DNA of 60,281 bases from Desulfobulbaceae bacterium. GTDB lineage: Bacteria > Desulfobacterota > Desulfobulbia > Desulfobulbales > Desulfobulbaceae. Location of the stretch: positions 1 to 60,281 of the forward strand of contig JAMJFO010000015.1 of the NCBI GenBank assembly GCA_023544645.1, read 5' to 3'. The notes under the pieces are model-generated. The model was not told the DNA's origin. It did no database searches and worked only from the letters and a program-made list of their open reading frames with translations. The position numbers and the translations under genes are program-made. Positions 10,699 to 23,494 of the stretch are shown here, piece by piece (the stretch's first letter is position 1; each line of letters begins with the position of its first letter).

Positions 10699-12492
10699 TT
10701 AATAATAATACCAGATCGTTTCGTAATCCCGGGCATCCTCGCCAATTTCCTCCAGCCTCCGGAGGTATTCAAGAATGGGCACATCCTTGCTGACATGGGT
10801 CTTCATCACACTGGTAATATTTTTTTCCCACGGATGAAATTCATACAGGCGGCTGCCATCGGGCAGGATCGATACAAGATCCCTGAAGCTGGTTGTCTTC
10901 AGGTAATTTTTCCCCAGGCCCGGCACGTTGTACACCGCCTCATCGGTCCTTGACAACCCCGGCAGCAGGCGGGACTCCTCCTTCTGCTCCTGCATAAGCC
11001 GGGCTATGGGCACCCGATAGGTCGAAGTCTCCTCCTTGCCTTTGGAATTAAAGGTGTAATAGGGATCAATTCCTATCCTGCTGAGCAGCCGGCGCAGGTA
11101 GGCCGCCTCAAAGCGCCGCGAAACAAAAAAGGTATATACCAGCTGGTTATAGACCGGGATGCCCTTTTGCTTGAGGCGCTCGACCGCGGCAGCCATATCC
11201 TGATTCACCTCATAGGGATGCTGCACGTGGGTGACGACGGAAAGCTGTCTTTTGCCCGGAATCCGGTATTTGGCGAGAATGGAAACCAGTTTGTCATTGA
11301 AGCGCATGGGCAGGGTTACCGGTGTCCGTGTCCCGATTCGGATCCGCTCCACCGTAGGGATATCGGCAATCAGGCCAAGAATCCAGTCAACATGGTCATC
11401 GTCCATGGCCAGCGGATCCCCTCCGGTGATCAGCACCTCGTGAATCGCGGGATGTGCCCGTATCCATTCTACGGCTTCATGTATTTTCTCATCCGAAGCC
11501 ATGGCTCCCGGCTGCATGGCATCATCTATCTCCCAGTTCCGCTGGCAGTATACGCATATCTGGGGACAGGTATTGTACGGTTTGAAAATGCAGATGGATG
11601 GATATCGCCTGGTGATAAGATCTATCGGGGAGGTATCAGACTCCAGCATGAAATCCATGCATCGGCTGCTCTCCTTTGCCTCTACAGTCAGATTGACATA
11701 GCTGGACGGGGGGATCACCTGGGCCCTGACCGCCCGGTCTCTGTTGTGGCCTGGATCATCATCCATGAGCGAAATGTAGTGCGGGGTGATCCCGAACGGC
11801 AGACGATGCTTTCTGGCGCTGCTGATGGCCTTCTTTTCTTCCGGCGACAGCCTCACCAGCCTGGATACCTCTTTGCTCTCACGCAGAATATGACTGATCT
11901 GCCATTGCCAGTCGTGCCAGTCGGCTTCGGTTCCGCCAAGTTCCGCCAGTATGCGCCTGCGCCTTTCAACCCTTCTCCTGAGCGATTCTTCGGAAAGGCC
12001 GGAACTTCCCTTGTCAAGGCGGGCCTGGACCGCGCCGTAAAGTTCATCCAGCTGGCTCGACCGTTCAACGGCTGCCCGCCGGTCCTTGTATTTGCTCGGC
12101 ACCAGATGCAGTTCGGTAAAAGCCTGCCCCGGCCCCCTTCCCTGCAGGCCAAGAAACAGGTAGTGCATGTCGGCAATAAAAGCCGGAGACAGATCCGGGC
12201 GCGGCACATCCAGGGCAATATCCCTGATGGCGCCTGCCAGGGAAAAACCGGCTTTGTTATCGCTCCTGCGTGTCATCATCCGCACGATGACCTTGGCGCA
12301 GTCACGGACCCGCATGATTGTTCCGGCATTGAATGAATCGTAATCATCAAAGGTTTCGAACATCATGTCGTGCGCCAGCCTGGCTATGCTGGCGCGAAAC
12401 TCATCAACAGATTCGGACTGCCTGGCAATAGCGCAGATCTCCGGCAGCTTTGCTTTCAGGTAATCTGGGGTAAATTTGGCAAACTCCATCAT
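10699..12492 (-). CDS. kamA: Lysine 2,3-aminomutase family radical SAM enzyme, long form
   Basis: About 597 aa from ATG 12492 (a TTG lies one codon upstream). The radical SAM motif CPQICVYC is CX3CX2C, followed by the KamA-type LITGGDPLAMDD and the TRTPVTLPMR strand. In classical lysine 2,3-aminomutase the PLP lysine sits in PGGGGK; here NVPGLGKNYLK is the corresponding site, so Lys of GLGK is the likely PLP ligand. The protein is some 180 residues longer than the clostridial enzyme, with an all-helical N-terminal extension of about 200 residues. Substrate (lysine or glutamate) cannot be told from sequence. It would make a beta-amino acid, which some anaerobes use as an osmolyte. No lysine-catabolism or acetyltransferase gene is adjacent. 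Confidence 0.88.
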   Translation of the reverse strand: MMEFAKFTPDYLKAKLPEICAIARQSESVDEFRASIARLAHDMMFETFDDYDSFNAGTIMRVRDCAKVIVRMMTRRSDNKAGFSLAGAIRDIALDVPRPDLSPAFIADMHYLFLGLQGRGPGQAFTELHLVPSKYKDRRAAVERSSQLDELYGAVQARLDKGSSGLSEESLRRRVERRRRILAELGGTEADWHDWQWQISHILRESKEVSRLVRLSPEEKKAISSARKHRLPFGITPHYISLMDDDPGHNRDRAVRAQVIPPSSYVNLTVEAKESSRCMDFMLESDTSPIDLITRRYPSICIFKPYNTCPQICVYCQRNWEIDDAMQPGAMASDEKIHEAVEWIRAHPAIHEVLITGGDPLAMDDDHVDWILGLIADIPTVERIRIGTRTPVTLPMRFNDKLVSILAKYRIPGKRQLSVVTHVQHPYEVNQDMAAAVERLKQKGIPVYNQLVYTFFVSRRFEAAYLRRLLSRIGIDPYYTFNSKGKEETSTYRVPIARLMQEQKEESRLLPGLSRTDEAVYNVPGLGKNYLKTTSFRDLVSILPDGSRLYEFHPWEKNITSVMKTHVSKDVPILEYLRRLEEIGEDARDYETIWYYY

Positions 12493-12909
12493 CAAGTGTT
12501 GAATAAATGAATGTTATCTGAGGTTTTCCCGAATTATGGCCTTGCTGTCAAATTATCAGTATAATCTTTTATTTAAACATGTACGTGGAGAGCCGTCAAC
12601 ACTTGCGGGAAATCATGCCTGCAGTCTCCCCCCTTTCCTTGCATTCATTTTAAATTTTGTGATATTATTAATCAAAAATGCAGATTTAAAATTTTATTAC
12701 GGACCAGGCATCAGTGACATTTTGTTCCACACACTTGAGCAGATGTATTGTATGCATCCAGAAAGGAGGGAGGCTTTTTGTCGCCAGCCTGTTCCCTTTT
12801 CATAACCCGAATTCAGCAGTTCCATCACGTGAATTCCACCTGTCAACCATGCCGCCCATGATCCCGAACGAACTGGCGGGTCTTCGCTTCATCTGCTGAT
12901 CAACGGATC
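12493..12909. other. Divergent intergenic region between kamA and yfiR-like
   Basis: About 417 bp, AT-rich in the middle, with no supportable gene. It holds a TATAAT at 12560-12565 without a good -35, and TTGCAT followed 18 bp later by TATTAT near 12640-12670, either of which could serve the plus-strand operon. At 12590-12610 it carries GAGCCGTC...CTTGCGGGAA, shared with the 7.56-kb hairpin. Confidence 0.4.
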
Positions 12910-18080: not shown

Positions 18081-18108
18081 GCTTTAATTTTTTTTGCAGG
18101 AGGAAAAA

Positions 18109-18549
18109 ATGAGTAAATCGCTAGTTGAAATGACAGCAGAAATTGTTCAATCCCAGATCAACACCAGGGAAATGAACAACGATGAAATCAAGTCAGCGCT
18201 TCATGATACATTTCAGACGCTGAAAAATCTGCAGGACGCAGAAGCGTCAGGACTGCCGATTGAACAGGCCGAAGCCAAACCAGCCATGTCCCCGGAAAAA
18301 TCAATCCAGAGGAATAAGGTTGTCTGCCTCGAATGCGGGGAGTCTTTCAAAATGCTTTCGCCGAAACATCTCAAGAGCCATGACCTTACGCCGAAGGAGT
18401 ACAGGAAAAAATACGGCTTTTCCATGCGCCAGCCGTTGTGCGCCAAAGCCCTTTCCGAAAGGCGCTCCATGTCCGGCAAAAAAAGGGGTCTGCCCGAAAA
18501 TTTGAAAAAAGCCATTGCCGCCCGCACCAAAGGAAAAAAGAAAAAATAA
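18109..18549 (+). CDS. MucR/Ros family transcriptional regulator
   Basis: 146 aa from ATG 18109, preceded by GCAGGAGG. The N-terminal helical half (MSKSLVEMTAEIVQSQI) is the oligomerisation region of MucR proteins. Residues about 75-110 hold the Ros-type zinc finger: CLEC, then KHLKSH, followed by LTPKEYRKKYG, a hallmark of the family. The tail is rich in Lys. MucR proteins bind AT-rich DNA in a H-NS-like way and often repress their own genes and surface polysaccharide or virulence functions; the AT-rich 300 bp upstream fits autoregulation. The murI gene follows 42 bp downstream. Confidence 0.9.
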   Translation: MSKSLVEMTAEIVQSQINTREMNNDEIKSALHDTFQTLKNLQDAEASGLPIEQAEAKPAMSPEKSIQRNKVVCLECGESFKMLSPKHLKSHDLTPKEYRKKYGFSMRQPLCAKALSERRSMSGKKRGLPENLKKAIAARTKGKKKK

Positions 18550-18591: not shown

Positions 18592-19383
18592 ATGATCGGC
18601 ATCTTTGACTCCGGTGTCGGCGGAATGACCGTCGCCCGGGCAATCGAACAGCTCTGTCCCCAATACCCGCTCCTCTACTTCGGTGATATTGCCCGGACTC
18701 CCTACGGTTCCAAGAGTCCTGAAACCATTATCGGATATTCGAGGAACAACACTGATTTTCTCCTGGAGCAGGGAGCGGAGCTGATCGTCATTGCCTGCAA
18801 CTCGGCTTCCAGTACGGCCTCCGATGCATTGCGCTCCCATTACCAGGCACCGATCCTGGACGTCATCACCCCGGCGACCACCAGGGCGGCCGAGGTCACG
18901 GCCAACGGCAGAATCGGGGTCATCGGCACCCGGGCCACCATTAAAAGCGGGATTTATCCGCAGAAAATTCAGGAGGCACGATCCGGAACCAGGGTCTTCA
19001 GCGCAGCCTGCCCCCTGCTGGTGCCGCTGGTTGAAGAAGGATGGGGGTCCCGACGGGAGACCAAAATGATTCTGCGCCGCTATCTCCACCCCCTGCGGCT
19101 GAAACAGATCGACACCCTGGTGCTGGGCTGCACCCATTATCCCCTCCTGAAGCACATGATCGGGCCGCGGATAGGCAAACGGGTCAAGCTGATCGATTCG
19201 TCGGTGGAAATGGCTGTTCATGTACGCAATTTTCTGGACCAGAACGAACAACTGCGGCAGCAGCTTCTCAAGACCACCGGCGCTGAAAATCGCTTTTTCG
19301 TTTCCGACAGCACCGACGCGGTACAAATAACGGCGGCGAAAATTTTCGGCCGCCCCATCAAGCTTGAAAAAATTAATGTGTAA
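18592..19383 (+). CDS. murI: Glutamate racemase
   Basis: 263 aa, the usual length. It interconverts L- and D-glutamate for peptidoglycan. The two catalytic cysteines are Cys69 in VIACNSASS and Cys180 in LGCTHYPLL. The substrate-binding DSGVGG (6-11) and YFGDIARTPYGSKS (29-42) are intact. It is cytoplasmic. lolA begins 5 bp after the stop, and the four genes murI, lolA, B12-radical SAM and S1 protein look like one transcription unit. Confidence 0.97.
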   Translation: MIGIFDSGVGGMTVARAIEQLCPQYPLLYFGDIARTPYGSKSPETIIGYSRNNTDFLLEQGAELIVIACNSASSTASDALRSHYQAPILDVITPATTRAAEVTANGRIGVIGTRATIKSGIYPQKIQEARSGTRVFSAACPLLVPLVEEGWGSRRETKMILRRYLHPLRLKQIDTLVLGCTHYPLLKHMIGPRIGKRVKLIDSSVEMAVHVRNFLDQNEQLRQQLLKTTGAENRFFVSDSTDAVQITAAKIFGRPIKLEKINV

Positions 19384-19388
19384 CCATC

Positions 19389-20135
19389 ATGCCTGGACAA
19401 AAAACGCTGTTTATCTTCCTGACCATCTCTCTGCTCAGCATGGCTTTACCCCTGCCGGCGATGAGCGCGGAAACAACCGGTGAAGAGCATTCGCCCGAAT
19501 CGCTGGCCATCTTCCTGCAGGATACATACAAATCACTGACCAGTCTCACCTTTGCCTTTGACCAGGTGACCCGCACCGGCACCCGGGAACGGCGCGGACG
19601 GGGCGAAGCAGTATTTTACCGGTTCCGCCCTCCTGCCGAAGACGGCCCGGAAAACAGCATTTCCGCGACGCAAAGCGTTATGCGCTGGGATTACATCGAA
19701 CCCGATCCGCAGATCATTGTCAGCGACGGCGAGACCCTTTCCATTTACACGGAAAAAGACAAACAGCTCATCAGAACCCCGGCAAAGGAGCTGGAATCAG
19801 ACATCACCTATGCCTTTTTCTCCGGCTCCCGGGATCTGCTTGACGATTTTGCCGCCCAGGACGCGGAAGCAGATTATCTTTTTTCTTCCGGCACGGATCT
19901 GCAATCCCTGCTCCTTGTTCCGCGGGAGCCCCACAACCAGATACGGGACGTGCGGGTGTGGTTCGACGACAAAGGCATCATTCATCACCTGGTGATCACC
20001 GATCATTTTGATTCGTTGACCGAGCTGAACTTTGACAACATCAGGGTCAACACTCTGCCGCCCGGGAACCGGGAAGCACTGGAGGAGATCATCACCTTTA
20101 CCATCCCCCCCGGCACCGAGATCATTTCCCGCTGA
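19389..20135 (+). CDS. lolA: LolA-like outer-membrane lipoprotein carrier
   Basis: 248 aa with a signal peptide (about 1-27, ending AMSA). The mature protein shows the LolA pattern: an amphipathic N-terminal helix (ESLAIFLQDTYKSLTSLTFAFDQ), the MRWDYIEPDPQIIVSDG hairpin that is diagnostic of the family, and alternating strands to the C-terminus. It carries lipoproteins across the periplasm to the outer membrane, consistent with Pal and other lipoproteins in this window. Somewhat longer than E. coli LolA (about 204 aa), with an insertion around EDGPENSISAT. The next gene starts 4 bp later. Confidence 0.88.
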   Translation: MPGQKTLFIFLTISLLSMALPLPAMSAETTGEEHSPESLAIFLQDTYKSLTSLTFAFDQVTRTGTRERRGRGEAVFYRFRPPAEDGPENSISATQSVMRWDYIEPDPQIIVSDGETLSIYTEKDKQLIRTPAKELESDITYAFFSGSRDLLDDFAAQDAEADYLFSSGTDLQSLLLVPREPHNQIRDVRVWFDDKGIIHHLVITDHFDSLTELNFDNIRVNTLPPGNREALEEIITFTIPPGTEIISR

Positions 20136-20139
20136 CGCC

Positions 20140-21936
20140 GTGCGCATTGTCCTTGTTTCCATGCCCTGGGCTATCTTCAACCGCCCCTCCATTCAGCTTG
20201 GAGCCCTGAAAAGCTACCTCGGCGCCCATGACCGGACCATTGATGCAGCCGCCTTTCATCCCTACCTGGATGTGGCCCAAGAAATCGGCTTTGACGCTTA
20301 CCGCATCATCTCTGAGGATAACTGGGCCGGCGAGGCCCTTTATTGCGCTCTTCTTTTTCCCGGGATCAGGGAAAAAGCCCGAAGTGTTTTTTTGCGCTCC
20401 CTGGGCAAAAAGACCGCCTCGCTGCTGCCCGGTTTTGACCGCCTCTGCGGCCAGCTGAACAATCTGCTCGATCAGTGGCTGGAGCAACATGACTTTACCG
20501 GCGTCAGCCTGGCCGGGTTTTCCGTCTGCTTCGGGCAGCTACCCGCTACCCTTCTGGCTTGCCGGCGCCTGAAAAGACAATATCCGCATGTCAAGACGGT
20601 CCTTGGCGGCTCAACCTGCATTCCGGAGATCGGTTCTTCACTGCTGCGAAACTTTTCCGACATCGATTATGTTATCAGCGGAGAAGGGGAGCGGCCCCTG
20701 CTTGAGCTGTGCCGCCATCTGCAGGGCCGCCCGGATTGCGACCGGGCCGCCTTTTTGCGCCGCGACAGCCTTCCGCATCTGCCGGACGAGCTCACCCGGG
20801 ACCACGAGGTCCACGATCTCAACACCCTGCCCGTTCCGGACTATGACGATTATTTCACCGAACTTAAGCAGTCGGGCCTGGGTTTCATTCCACAGCTGCC
20901 TGTGGAATTTTCCCGGGGGTGCTGGTGGAACAAATGCGCCTTCTGCAACCTGAACCTGCAGTGGTGCGGATACCGGTTCAAGGACTCCGCGCGCATGCAG
21001 GCTGAAGTGGAGTTGCTGACCCCTAAATACCGCTGCCTGGACTTTGCCTTTACCGACAATGCCCTGCCGCCGACCCAGGCGGACCGATTCTTTACCGCCA
21101 TGGCAGACAACGGGAAAGATACCCGTTTTTTTGCCGAAATCAGGTGTACCGATAAACCTGAACAGTATGATCGTTTTCACCGGGGGGGGTTGGACTCGGT
21201 CCAGATCGGCATCGAGGCTTTTTCCAATAGTCTGCTCAAACGAATGAACAAGGGGGCAACGGTCATGGACAACCTGGCAGCCATGAAATATTGCGCTGCC
21301 GCCGGCATCCGACTTGACGGAAACCTGATCCTCGAATTTCCGGGCAGCACCGAAAAAGAGGTCGCCGAAACGCTGCGGACGCTCGAATTTGTCCTGCCGT
21401 TCCGCCCGCTCACCGCCGCCGGTTTTTTCCTCGGCCACGGGAGCCCGGTATGGAACAACCCCGGCAAATACGGCGTCAAGACCATCCGGCACCACCCTTA
21501 CAACCGACTGCTTTATCCAGACTCCATTCTGTCCGGGCTCGAACTGCTCATCAAACAAGGACACGGCGACCGCGGCCGCCAGAAGACAATCTGGCGGCCG
21601 GTGAGAAAAAAGATCAGGGAATGGGCCGCGTTTCACGAAAACAGAGCTGATAAAATTCCCGCCCTCAGCTACCGCAACGGCGGTGAATTTATCATTATCC
21701 GGCAGGCACGCCCGGGCAGGCCAGCCCGGCACCACCGCCTTACGGGCATGTCCGCTGCAATATACCTGGCATGCGGAAATCCTGTCGCAATAAAATCATT
21801 GCTCCGCGACTTTAACTCGGTTACGGAGAAGGTATTAACTGTTTTTCTGGACGACCTGGAAAACAAAAAACTTCTCTTCCGGGACGGCGGCATGTGCCTG
21901 GCGCTTGCCGTGGAACAGTCGCCGGCAGGACACTAA
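20140..21936 (+). CDS. B12-binding radical SAM protein, RiPP C-methyltransferase-like
   Basis: About 598 aa from GTG 20140 (VRIVLVSMPWAIFNRPSIQLG), 4 bp after lolA stops; a longer in-frame reading from 20032 lies inside lolA. Residues 1-215 are a cobalamin-binding-like Rossmann domain (GFSVCFGQL, VLGGSTCIPEIG, YVISGEGERPLLEL). The radical SAM domain follows, with Cys261, Cys266 and Cys269 in RGCWWNKCAFCNLN: CX4CX2C rather than CX3CX2C. RGCWW and the C-terminal winged-helix-like region (SYRNGGEFIII...TGMSAAIYLACGN) resemble B12 radical SAM methyltransferases that mature ribosomal peptides. No precursor peptide or export gene is near, so peptide modification is only a possibility. Confidence 0.85.
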   Translation: MRIVLVSMPWAIFNRPSIQLGALKSYLGAHDRTIDAAAFHPYLDVAQEIGFDAYRIISEDNWAGEALYCALLFPGIREKARSVFLRSLGKKTASLLPGFDRLCGQLNNLLDQWLEQHDFTGVSLAGFSVCFGQLPATLLACRRLKRQYPHVKTVLGGSTCIPEIGSSLLRNFSDIDYVISGEGERPLLELCRHLQGRPDCDRAAFLRRDSLPHLPDELTRDHEVHDLNTLPVPDYDDYFTELKQSGLGFIPQLPVEFSRGCWWNKCAFCNLNLQWCGYRFKDSARMQAEVELLTPKYRCLDFAFTDNALPPTQADRFFTAMADNGKDTRFFAEIRCTDKPEQYDRFHRGGLDSVQIGIEAFSNSLLKRMNKGATVMDNLAAMKYCAAAGIRLDGNLILEFPGSTEKEVAETLRTLEFVLPFRPLTAAGFFLGHGSPVWNNPGKYGVKTIRHHPYNRLLYPDSILSGLELLIKQGHGDRGRQKTIWRPVRKKIREWAAFHENRADKIPALSYRNGGEFIIIRQARPGRPARHHRLTGMSAAIYLACGNPVAIKSLLRDFNSVTEKVLTVFLDDLENKKLLFRDGGMCLALAVEQSPAGH

Positions 21937-21994: not shown

Positions 21995-23155
21995 ATGAGT
22001 GAAGAACGATTTGAAGATCTATTTGACGACCAGCAGGTAGCCGCCCCCAGGCTCAATCCGGGTGACCGCATCGAGGCAAAGGTCGCCGGCATAAGCGGCG
22101 AGAACATTTTTCTCGATATCGGCGGCAAGAGCGAAGGGGTGCTGAAGGCAGCGGAACTCTCCGATCAGGAAGGAAACCTCAATGTCGAGCCCGGCGACAA
22201 ACTGCAGGTGTTTTTCCTGTCCACCCGTGGAGGATCAATGGTGTTTACCACCAGGGTCGGCGCCGGCCAGGCCTCCCTGCAGGAACTTGAGGACGCCTTC
22301 CACTCAGGCATTCCCGTTGAAGGGCGGGTCACCGCCGAAATCAAGGGGGGATTTGAAGTCAAAGTGGCAGGGCAGCGGGGCTTCTGCCCCTATTCGCAGA
22401 TGGATATCCGGCGTATTGAGGATCCGGAAGAATATCTGGACAAGCAGTTTCCTTTCAAGATCATCGAATTCTCCGCCCAAGGCCGCAATATGATCCTGTC
22501 CGCGAGGGCCGTTCTGGAGGAAGCAAGGGAACAGCAGCGCCAGGTCCTGAGGGATTCCCTGGAAGAAGGCGACCGGGTCCAGGGCACCGTTACCTCCATC
22601 CGTGATTTTGGCGCCTTTGTTGATATCGGCGGCGTGGACGGCCTCATCCCGATCTCCGAGCTGGCCTGGGGCCAGGTCGACCGGGTGGAAGACATTCTCA
22701 GCCGGGGACAGCAGGTGGAAGTCATTGTCAGGAAACTGGACTGGGACAAAGAGCGTATCAGCCTCAGCCTCAAGGAAACCCTGGAAAATCCCTGGGACAA
22801 TGTAACCGGTAAATATACTGTGGGCTCAACCCATACCGGCCAGGTGTGCCGCCTGGCCCAATTCGGCGCATTTGTCACCCTGGAGCCGGGGGTTGACGGT
22901 CTCATTCACATTTCCAAGCTGGGCGCGGGACGGCGGATAAATCATCCCCGGGAAGTCCTGGAGCAGGGGCAGGAAATCACCGTGCGCATCGATGGAGTTG
23001 ATCCGGAAAGCAAAAGAATATCGCTGGTGCCGGAAGATTTTACCGAAGAAACAGCCTCGCCGGAAGAGAGGAAACAGGCCTACAGGCCTCCGCCGCAGAA
23101 ATCCCTTGGAACTTTTGGCGACTTGTTGTCCAAAACCATGAAGAAGAAAAAATAA
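21995..23155 (+). CDS. Multi-S1-domain RNA-binding protein (ribosomal protein S1-like)
   Basis: About 386 aa from ATG 21995 (MSEERFEDLFDDQ); the frame is open upstream to 21905 but that part reads like non-coding sequence. Four S1 motifs are visible: about 20-80 (GDRIEAKVAGISGENIFLDIG), about 95-160, about 185-255 (GTVTSIRDFGAFVDIGGVDG) and about 270-340 (GQVCRLAQFGAFVTLEPGVDG). Domains three and four are canonical; the first is degenerate. The C-terminal tail is short and Lys-rich. It is shorter than the six-domain ribosomal S1, so it may be a secondary S1-like translation or RNA-decay factor. Confidence 0.88.
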   Translation: MSEERFEDLFDDQQVAAPRLNPGDRIEAKVAGISGENIFLDIGGKSEGVLKAAELSDQEGNLNVEPGDKLQVFFLSTRGGSMVFTTRVGAGQASLQELEDAFHSGIPVEGRVTAEIKGGFEVKVAGQRGFCPYSQMDIRRIEDPEEYLDKQFPFKIIEFSAQGRNMILSARAVLEEAREQQRQVLRDSLEEGDRVQGTVTSIRDFGAFVDIGGVDGLIPISELAWGQVDRVEDILSRGQQVEVIVRKLDWDKERISLSLKETLENPWDNVTGKYTVGSTHTGQVCRLAQFGAFVTLEPGVDGLIHISKLGAGRRINHPREVLEQGQEITVRIDGVDPESKRISLVPEDFTEETASPEERKQAYRPPPQKSLGTFGDLLSKTMKKKK

Positions 23156-23293: not shown

Positions 23294-23494
23294 TTATGCT
23301 TCGCCGATAATTTCCCTGTAAAAATCGCACTCGGACCGGCATCTTTTGATCTTATCCTGATAGTCCCCCTGCACCTCCCCGTGACATAACGTGCCCTTGA
23401 CGCTGAAACAGAGCCGGCCATAAATAGGGTATGCGGGGCATTCCTTCTCGGTCCCGCATTTCTGGTATTCCCAGCAATTCATCCTTGAGTTCAT
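23294..23494 (-). CDS. Small two-CW domain protein
   Basis: 66 aa from ATG 23494, preceded by GAGGGAGG. Cysteines form the two-CW pattern: MNCWEYQKCG, ECPAYP, RLCFSVKGTLCHGEVQG, then CRSECDFYREI. In this family the CW and paired cysteines are thought to bind a metal, and such proteins are common in anaerobic Deltaproteobacteria, free-standing or fused to signalling domains. The function is unknown. It is monocistronic, with its own terminator. Confidence 0.78.
   Translation of the reverse strand: MNSRMNCWEYQKCGTEKECPAYPIYGRLCFSVKGTLCHGEVQGDYQDKIKRCRSECDFYREIIGEA

Follow-up and report, generated by a model that had tools for sequence, protein, structure and literature searches.

A clade of RiPP-methyltransferase homologues in Desulfobacterota behaves as a core gene and may act on a conserved cellular substrate

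Here we describe a gene for a radical S-adenosylmethionine (SAM) enzyme located in a contig of 60,281 nucleotides from a Desulfobulbaceae bacterium (phylum Desulfobacterota, class Desulfobulbia; NCBI GenBank assembly GCA_023544645.1, contig JAMJFO010000015.1, positions 1 to 60,281 of the forward strand), the whole of which is referred to below as the window. The gene (20140..21936, + strand) encodes a protein of 598 aa homologous to enzymes that modify ribosomally synthesized and post-translationally modified peptides (RiPPs). The explanation that we favour, with a confidence just above even, is that the protein works as a radical-SAM enzyme that depends on cobalamin, most probably a C-methyltransferase, from the lineage of PoyC and the NCBIfam model TIGR03975, and that its clade has left RiPP biosynthesis to become a core gene in many sulfate-reducing lineages of the phylum, where it would act on one conserved cytoplasmic protein or peptide. 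An earlier note, made from the sequence of the window, had called the enzyme an orphan; this label is not quite right, as the protein belongs to a large clade with stable synteny in its class, and it is this whole clade of RiPP-methyltransferase homologues that behaves as a core gene.

The reading frame starts with a GTG codon at 20140, 4 nt past the stop codon of a lolA-like gene, and its stop codon ends at 21936. The cluster motif, C261-X4-C266-X2-C269 within RGCWWNKCAFCNL (20920..20946, +), reads RGCWWNKCAFC, i.e. CX4CX2C, so that both the gene and the motif reported by the earlier note are borne out, as is the RGCWW lead-in, which is common to TIGR03975 enzymes. C261, C266 and C269 are invariant across an alignment of the window's protein with 67 relatives (68 sequences). 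A misread of the motif, which the earlier note had considered, can be dismissed, because 70 of the 85 distinct proteins of the window's type with at least 560 aa share the spacing; among the loci read with the window's gene order, the sole exception to CX4CX2C (L044) is a fragment without the motif region. The three cysteines lie, as in B12 radical-SAM enzymes, in a radical-SAM barrel (residues ~246-445, 20875..21474, +), recognized by PF04055 (59.1 bits) and in the structure model. TIGR03975 (rSAM_ocin_1) is the only NCBIfam profile over its cut-off (367.5 bits versus 281.85, 606 of 606 positions), and all 68 aligned sequences match it at E<=1e-10; the likeness to peptide C-methyltransferases pointed out before thus amounts to homology over the whole length. 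The next-best profile, PhpK, scores 62.6 bits, and the model of the methyl-coenzyme M reductase glutamine C-methylase MgmA, TIGR04014, scores 42.4 bits against a cut-off of 360, which places the protein outside that family.

The N-terminal cobalamin-binding-type domain proposed by the earlier note (residues ~1-195, 20140..20724, +) is weak in Pfam (PF02310, B12-binding: E=0.002, 18.4 bits versus a cut-off of 32.1) and clear in a structure model. The AlphaFold2 model built on the 68-sequence alignment has a mean predicted local distance difference test score (pLDDT) of 94.3 and a predicted template modelling score of 0.92, and its residues 1-497 superpose on cobalamin-bound OxsB with Z 26.8 (395 residues, root-mean-square deviation (rmsd) 2.8). 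Other solved folds high in the list include AprD4 (Z 23.8), MgmA (22.9), CysS (22.7), TsrM (22.7), TokK (21.4) and MiaB (20.0), the matches spanning residues 1 to ~500. The region aligns with OxsB, TsrM, CysS, TokK and MgmA, and since the alignment to the cobalamin-bound OxsB and TsrM begins at residue 1, a cobalamin-binding role of this domain is predicted by fold.

OxsB, TsrM, TokK and CysS, although among the closest solved folds (Z 26.8 to 21.4), are only 13-17% identical to the window's enzyme, and in the rows shown their alignments stop before most of the C-terminal winged helix; the substrates of all four are small molecules. Such relatives speak for the main rival explanation, that the methyl group goes not to a protein but to a lipid or a small molecule, such as a quinone or a lipid of the envelope, given that several enzymes close in fold or by weaker profiles (HpnJ, HpnR, TIGR04072, BchE, OxsB, TokK and CysS) act on small molecules or lipids. 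We consider this rival rather improbable, because the peptide-modifying TIGR03975 outscores every other profile by a wide margin, and because the enzyme has retained and conserved a C-terminal domain with a homologue in the RiPP-type enzymes; the evidence from neighbouring genes, which cuts both ways, is given below.

The distribution of the enzyme was followed at three levels, in genome samples that are even but partial and include many incomplete genomes, with the family searches scoring the first few candidates per genome (up to eight for TIGR03975 in the class, four for TIGR03975 in the phylum, six for dsrA and for cdhD in the phylum), so that additional copies may have been overlooked. 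Some match at E<=1e-3 occurs in 54 of 57 related genomes (that of the window included), and 32 of them, not counting the window's own, have an orthologue that covers most of the protein and is 44-60% identical to it (in two pieces in G005, up to residue 544 in G049), with one more genome (G011) holding an orthologue fragment only. In the class sample, 87 of 144 genomes match TIGR03975 at E<=1e-40; by score, 85 carry the window's type and four the RiPP type (G046, G075, G080 and G117), two of them (G080 and G117) carrying both, and many of the 85 were assigned by bit score (~250-403 versus 530-662) without sequence or tree. Two class genomes (G136 and G154) hold additional partial TIGR03975 matches. 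In the phylum sample, a match at E<=1e-60, in every case over the cut-off, was found in 46 of 297 genomes, 36 with the window's type and ten with the RiPP type; for 31 of the 36 the sequence was fetched and the motif read.

A tree of 70 of the 103 distinct proteins of at least 560 aa separates the RiPP type (18 rows) from the window's clade (52 rows) by a long branch with full support in the Shimodaira-Hasegawa-like approximate likelihood ratio test (SH-aLRT 100), although the tree was made with a quick method without bootstrap, 14 rows have an unusual composition and 22 of the 67 inner branches are supported by less than 80. Within the window's clade the branching roughly tracks family codes, and the clade is large and apparently vertically inherited, with stable synteny in the window's class. 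The earlier note had held that a consistent placement of the homologues in a known non-RiPP family would count against a RiPP role; the nearest homologues do lie consistently in non-RiPP surroundings, but to our knowledge no function has been assigned to their clade. A collection of plasmids yielded 56 matching records, all below 60% identity (26.6-30.3% in the ten rows shown), mainly from organisms named Streptomyces (22) and Rhizobium (20), and seven of the ten rows bear annotations for RiPP maturation; these plasmid-borne sequences look like the RiPP type. Among the titles and abstract openings listed for the literature on TIGR03975, B12 radical-SAM RiPP C-methyltransferases, RiPP recognition elements (RREs) and CX4CX2C, none deals with the window's clade.

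The separation of the two types is matched by the occurrence of RiPP precursors, for which Nif11 and NHLP leader families were searched in 50 genomes and in the window's own. In the latter, the Nif11 model gives no match and the NHLP model none over the cut-off (best 12 bits, E 0.5). Among the 36 phylum carriers of the window's type, NHLP leaders are found in none and Nif11 leaders in two (G037, 30.2 bits, under the cut-off; G337, 56.2 bits, over it), both on contigs other than that of the enzyme. Precursors of these two leader families that would indicate a RiPP-maturation function are thus absent over the cut-off from the window's genome and nearly absent from the carriers. The 14 RiPP-type genomes (ten from the phylum sample and four from the class sample, G080 and G117 among them also holding the window's type) include seven with Nif11, seven with NHLP, eight with either and six with neither, and in seven the leader lies within ~2.1 kb of a TIGR03975 gene. 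Two RiPP-type loci that we checked for contrast hold a Nif11 (L153) and a nitrile-hydratase-like (L158) precursor. L153 combines two TIGR03975 enzymes with Nif11-type precursors, L156 likewise with four enzymes, and L158 encodes two nitrile-hydratase-like precursors ending in alanine/valine-rich cores; L158 and L159 are RiPP-type clusters with export-type genes and two further radical-SAM-like proteins downstream (named by eye, except for the precursor).

No precursor or RiPP gene was seen around the window's gene, in agreement with the earlier note, and clustering of 921 short open reading frames (ORFs; 25-130 aa) within 4 kb of genes of the window's type gave no recurring precursor candidate, although the crude gene caller used could mask a short gene. 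The recurring short ORFs that look real, one upstream of mucR (11 loci; presumably an FmdB-like zinc-ribbon protein) and one beside gmk (ten loci; presumably RemA/DUF370-like), do not adjoin the enzyme. These data bear on a second rival, also raised by the earlier note, that the protein matures a RiPP in trans, from a precursor encoded at a distance. It would agree with the family name and the homology, as well as with the RRE-like domain described below, but we find it unlikely in view of the near-absence of the two leader families, the lack of a short ORF recurring next to the gene, and an apparent vertical inheritance and conserved C-terminal domain that set the window's type apart from the RiPP clade. 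The large size of its clade, together with this apparent inheritance and the stable synteny in the class, makes a chance orphan or a remote precursor less likely than a fixed cellular substrate.

The third domain of the enzyme is a C-terminal winged helix (residues ~506-590, 21655..21909, +) with the conserved stretches YRDGG-F-IIRQ and HRL-G-SR-IYL-C. The winged-helix-like region suspected in the earlier note is seen in a separate model of residues 501-598 (pLDDT 93.7) as three strands, three helices and a wing. The top two rows in VIA-align are leader-bound TbiB1 (PDB 5v1v), a lasso-peptide recognition element whose three-strand plus winged-helix layout the domain shares (Z 8.8/8.6, rmsd 2.4/2.2, 75/73 residues), whereas the third row is an ordinary winged helix, YodB (Z 8.2, rmsd 4.0), tied with TbiB1 by Z; a heterocyclase with substrate (4v1u) follows with Z 7.2. 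An RRE-like nature of the modelled domain is a structural hint, whereas its homology to the equivalent domain in enzymes of the RiPP type is firm (hhalign E 9e-20).

The two types differ markedly in how strongly this domain is conserved. Across 50 proteins of the window's clade, pairs are on average 51.8% identical over the radical-SAM core and 44.3% over the C-terminal domain, versus 43.0% and 25.1%, respectively, across 17 proteins of the RiPP type. For pairs with 35-50% core identity, the C-terminal identity is 41.2% in the window's clade (502 pairs) and 24.2% in the RiPP type (122 pairs), the pairs being non-independent. RiPP recognition domains are expected to vary along with the leaders, and a domain kept nearly as tightly as the core suggests one fixed partner across the phylum; the difference at equal core divergence (41% versus 24%) is what would be expected for one conserved partner. 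We infer that the domain may serve a single fixed protein or peptide substrate, the alternative being that its conservation reflects a structural constraint from the rest of the enzyme.

The earlier note had seen the four residues between the first two cysteines as an oddity setting the enzyme apart from RiPP enzymes, a view that does not hold. Among the 103 distinct proteins of at least 560 aa (109 with shorter pieces), the loop of the window's type (85 proteins) has 4 residues in 70 cases, 13 in eight, 9 in two, 17 in two, and 12, 14 and 15 in one each, while that of the RiPP type (18 proteins) has 7 in 14, 4 in three and 9 in one. The loops of 9-17 residues belong to relatives of the window's protein from other classes, and the RiPP-clade copies with CX4 occur in L100, L101 and L156, the last of these loci combining X4, X7 and X9 loops. 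Mapped on the tree, loop length requires 12 changes and is clustered but labile. Because the spacing varies within both clades, we do not regard CX4CX2C as marking a separate type of enzyme. The motif Cx7Cx2C has been described for PoyB, PoyC and bottromycin enzymes (PMC5682303, PMC11285071). The window's CX4CX2C departs from it, but this is not diagnostic, since RiPP-clade copies show CX4 and CX9 too; a range from 4 to 17 inside one clade cautions against classing such enzymes by motif spacing. Other positions near the cluster motif and elsewhere also show consistent differences: N270 is replaced by G in 15 of 17 RiPP-type rows, W275 by G in nine of 17 and S403 by E in 16 of 17, and the stretch FFLGxGSPV of the window's type corresponds to an xRFSxY-like stretch in the RiPP clade. 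Judged from these sequence differences, the substrate of the window's type probably differs from those of the RiPP type.

Taken against the TIGR03975 enzymes of the PoyB/PoyC type (both of which we take to be members of that model), the window's clade shares full-length homology over the cut-off, the same three domains, the RGCWW lead-in and a homologous C-terminal domain, but it stands apart across a long branch, nearly lacks the tested leaders, has the synteny of a core gene in its class, and shows a conserved C-terminal domain, changed residues and a loop of 4-17 instead of mostly 7 residues. On the explanation that we prefer, the C-terminal RRE-like winged helix would bind a short, conserved stretch of a single protein or peptide of the cytoplasm; a [4Fe-4S] cluster on C261, C266 and C269 would split SAM to give a 5'-deoxyadenosyl radical, which would abstract a hydrogen from an unactivated carbon; and methylcobalamin on the N-terminal domain would donate a methyl group, leaving a permanently C-methylated residue, as Mmp10 and MgmA do on methyl-coenzyme M reductase. 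The latter two belong to the B12 radical-SAM enzymes, and the target of their C-methylation is a conserved enzyme of the cell, not a natural product. MgmA (PDB 9ccb; Z 22.9) matches the window's enzyme in fold along with Mmp10 (Z 12.3 over the barrel), but the profile score of the window's protein lies far below the cut-off of the MgmA model, and the target of both is an enzyme of methanogens.

A clue to the substrate may come from co-occurring genes, whose statistics were calculated with ancestry ignored. All but one of the 36 phylum carriers (35) have the gene dsrA, versus 144 of 297 genomes overall (Fisher p 2e-11), and in view of this excess the substrate may belong to energy metabolism; the one carrier without dsrA (G200) is 67% complete and has a congener (G164) with the gene. 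The association is a lead, not proof, and the window's type is found in 35 of the 144 dsrA-positive phylum genomes, the other 109 being without it at the threshold of E<=1e-60. The gene cdhD bears on another rival, a tie to the Wood-Ljungdahl pathway (carbon monoxide dehydrogenase/acetyl-CoA synthase, CODH/ACS), with the enzyme modifying, for example, one of its proteins. In the class sample cdhD accompanies 80 of 85 carriers versus 38 of 59 non-carriers (Fisher p 1e-5), and among the listed genomes of the genus g7, cdhD occurs in none and the enzyme in G126 only; in the phylum, cdhD is present in 31 of 36 carriers versus 193 of 297 genomes (p 0.005). However, two of the five class carriers without cdhD are ~100% complete (G019 and G126), the association is not significant among dsrA-positive phylum genomes (p 0.10), and the matches were counted at a threshold set by us (E<=1e-30), only five of 297 phylum and none of 144 class genomes exceeding the cut-off of the model. 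We therefore dropped cdhD as a linked trait and regard the tie to the Wood-Ljungdahl pathway as most improbable.

For the class, the genes around the enzyme were compared in 40 loci that represent some of the known carriers, with redundant copies removed. In the window, an operon-like run is headed by a gene for a Ros/MucR-type regulator (18094..18549, +; PF05443, 129.6 bits), followed by murI for glutamate racemase (18592..19383, +; TIGR00067, 223.6 bits, cut-off 146.65), the lolA-like gene (19389..20135, +; PF03548, 60.7 bits, cut-off 23.6; TIGR00547, 72.5 bits, cut-off 112), the enzyme gene, and a short gene of the ribosomal protein S1 type directly downstream (21995..23155, +; NF005208, 441.7 bits, cut-off 368). 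The murI-lolA-S1 setting recognized by the earlier note is thereby confirmed, with MurI and S1 over the NCBIfam cut-offs and LolA over that of Pfam but under that of NCBIfam. Of the class loci, 38 extend 0.5 kb or more upstream of the enzyme gene, and all of these but L030 (37 of 38) have a lolA-like gene as the immediate upstream neighbour in the same orientation; murI and the S1 gene are each present in 34 of 40 loci, several of the others ending at contig edges. Between the enzyme and S1 the class relatives have cobU in eight, cobD in 12, either of them in 13 and yfcE in 18 of the 40 loci, the fullest order being mucR-murI-lolA-enzyme-cobU-cobD-yfcE-S1; the cobalamin nucleotide-loop genes cobU and cobD, like yfcE, are absent from this place in the window, and are found there in L025, L028, L029, L031, L032, L160 and L162, loci that belong to other families within the class. 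The respective cut-offs were exceeded by one CobU and one YfcE, and a CobD example scored 256.8 against 290.55, the remaining assignments being made by tblastn.

The downstream cobU and/or cobD genes support a link to B12, and the window's genome also has cobU, on another contig (G000:C153). They equally suit a rival in which the enzyme serves cobalamin metabolism or another radical reaction without methyl transfer, which would also agree with the near folds OxsB and AprD4, both non-methyltransferases, and with a periplasmic binding-protein gene directly upstream of the enzyme in L145 (over the cut-off only for TroA_like; BtuF 70.5 bits, cut-off 234). We consider this rival very unlikely, as cobU and cobD are absent from the site in all loci read from the window's own family, where the enzyme is kept, and as cobU occurs in 47 of 57 relatives, including some without an enzyme orthologue (G007 and G012).

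The lolA adjacency hints at the envelope and so could favour a lipid substrate, or the envelope-protein methylation proposed by the earlier note; it was, however, seen only in the window's class, all 30 loci read from other classes (some with short upstream sequence) being without it, and neither supports nor contradicts the latter idea. No constant lipid-synthesis neighbour was seen among neighbours that are partly annotated. In the other classes the enzyme gene is frequently preceded by genes for fructose-bisphosphatase, HtpX and, in many cases, EamA, in that order (nine loci), with one HtpX/M48 protein and one tetratricopeptide repeat (TPR) protein checked by Pfam and the other names given by eye. 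A TPR-containing protein of ~280 aa follows the enzyme in L128, L135, L139, L141, L142, L146, L147 and L151, all from other classes; its gene overlaps that of the enzyme by 4 nt in L142, and the one protein scanned has no NCBIfam match. It is possibly a partner or substrate of the enzyme.

Several observations weigh against a conserved protein or peptide as the substrate of a C-methyltransferase inherited as a core gene. Neighbours vary between classes and point to no substrate. With only 36 carriers among 297 phylum genomes, most of the phylum can do without the function; the clade membership of five of these carriers (G212, G275, G382, G398 and G419) relies on bit score alone. The enzyme of G019 (rows L066/L030), a genome from the window's family, is placed with family f12 in the tree and has no lolA beside its gene, suggesting some horizontal transfer. 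The fold neighbours high in the list include non-methyltransferases: AprD4, in the fourth row, is a diol dehydratase, and OxsB, the nearest fold, carries out ring contraction and not methyl transfer (PMC13331322). As to the C-terminal domain, Foldseek alone returned nothing significant, and in contrast to the likeness in layout there is no sequence link to TbiB1 or other RREs, Pfam searches with 50 members and a profile comparison against PDB sequences giving chance-level matches only, so that the RRE-likeness depends on a structural match tied within 1 Z with the generic YodB.

More broadly, sulfate reducers may hold a dedicated, inherited system of protein C-methylation, in which an enzyme of RiPP type, withdrawn from natural-product synthesis and equipped with its own domain for peptide recognition, modifies a single conserved protein of the cell, a proposal that we regard as possible but short of an even chance. 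If true, B12 radical-SAM C-methylation of unactivated carbons would be a normal protein modification in one major group of anaerobes from the environment, beyond methanogens and natural products, and the clade would illustrate a route from a RiPP enzyme to an enzyme of core metabolism. The NCBI name referring to RiPP maturation is probably misleading for the window's clade; on the same premise, automatic annotation would mislabel all of its members as 'RiPP maturation radical SAM C-methyltransferase', which could give rise to false RiPP clusters in genome mining.

Two further features of the window may be mentioned. A second radical-SAM protein, which by eye resembles the lysine 2,3-aminomutase (KamA) family, is encoded at 10699-12495 (- strand), and a short cysteine-rich ORF (NCWEYQKCGTEKECPAYP...) at ~23294-23479 (- strand) is also present in L047 at an equal distance from the enzyme gene.

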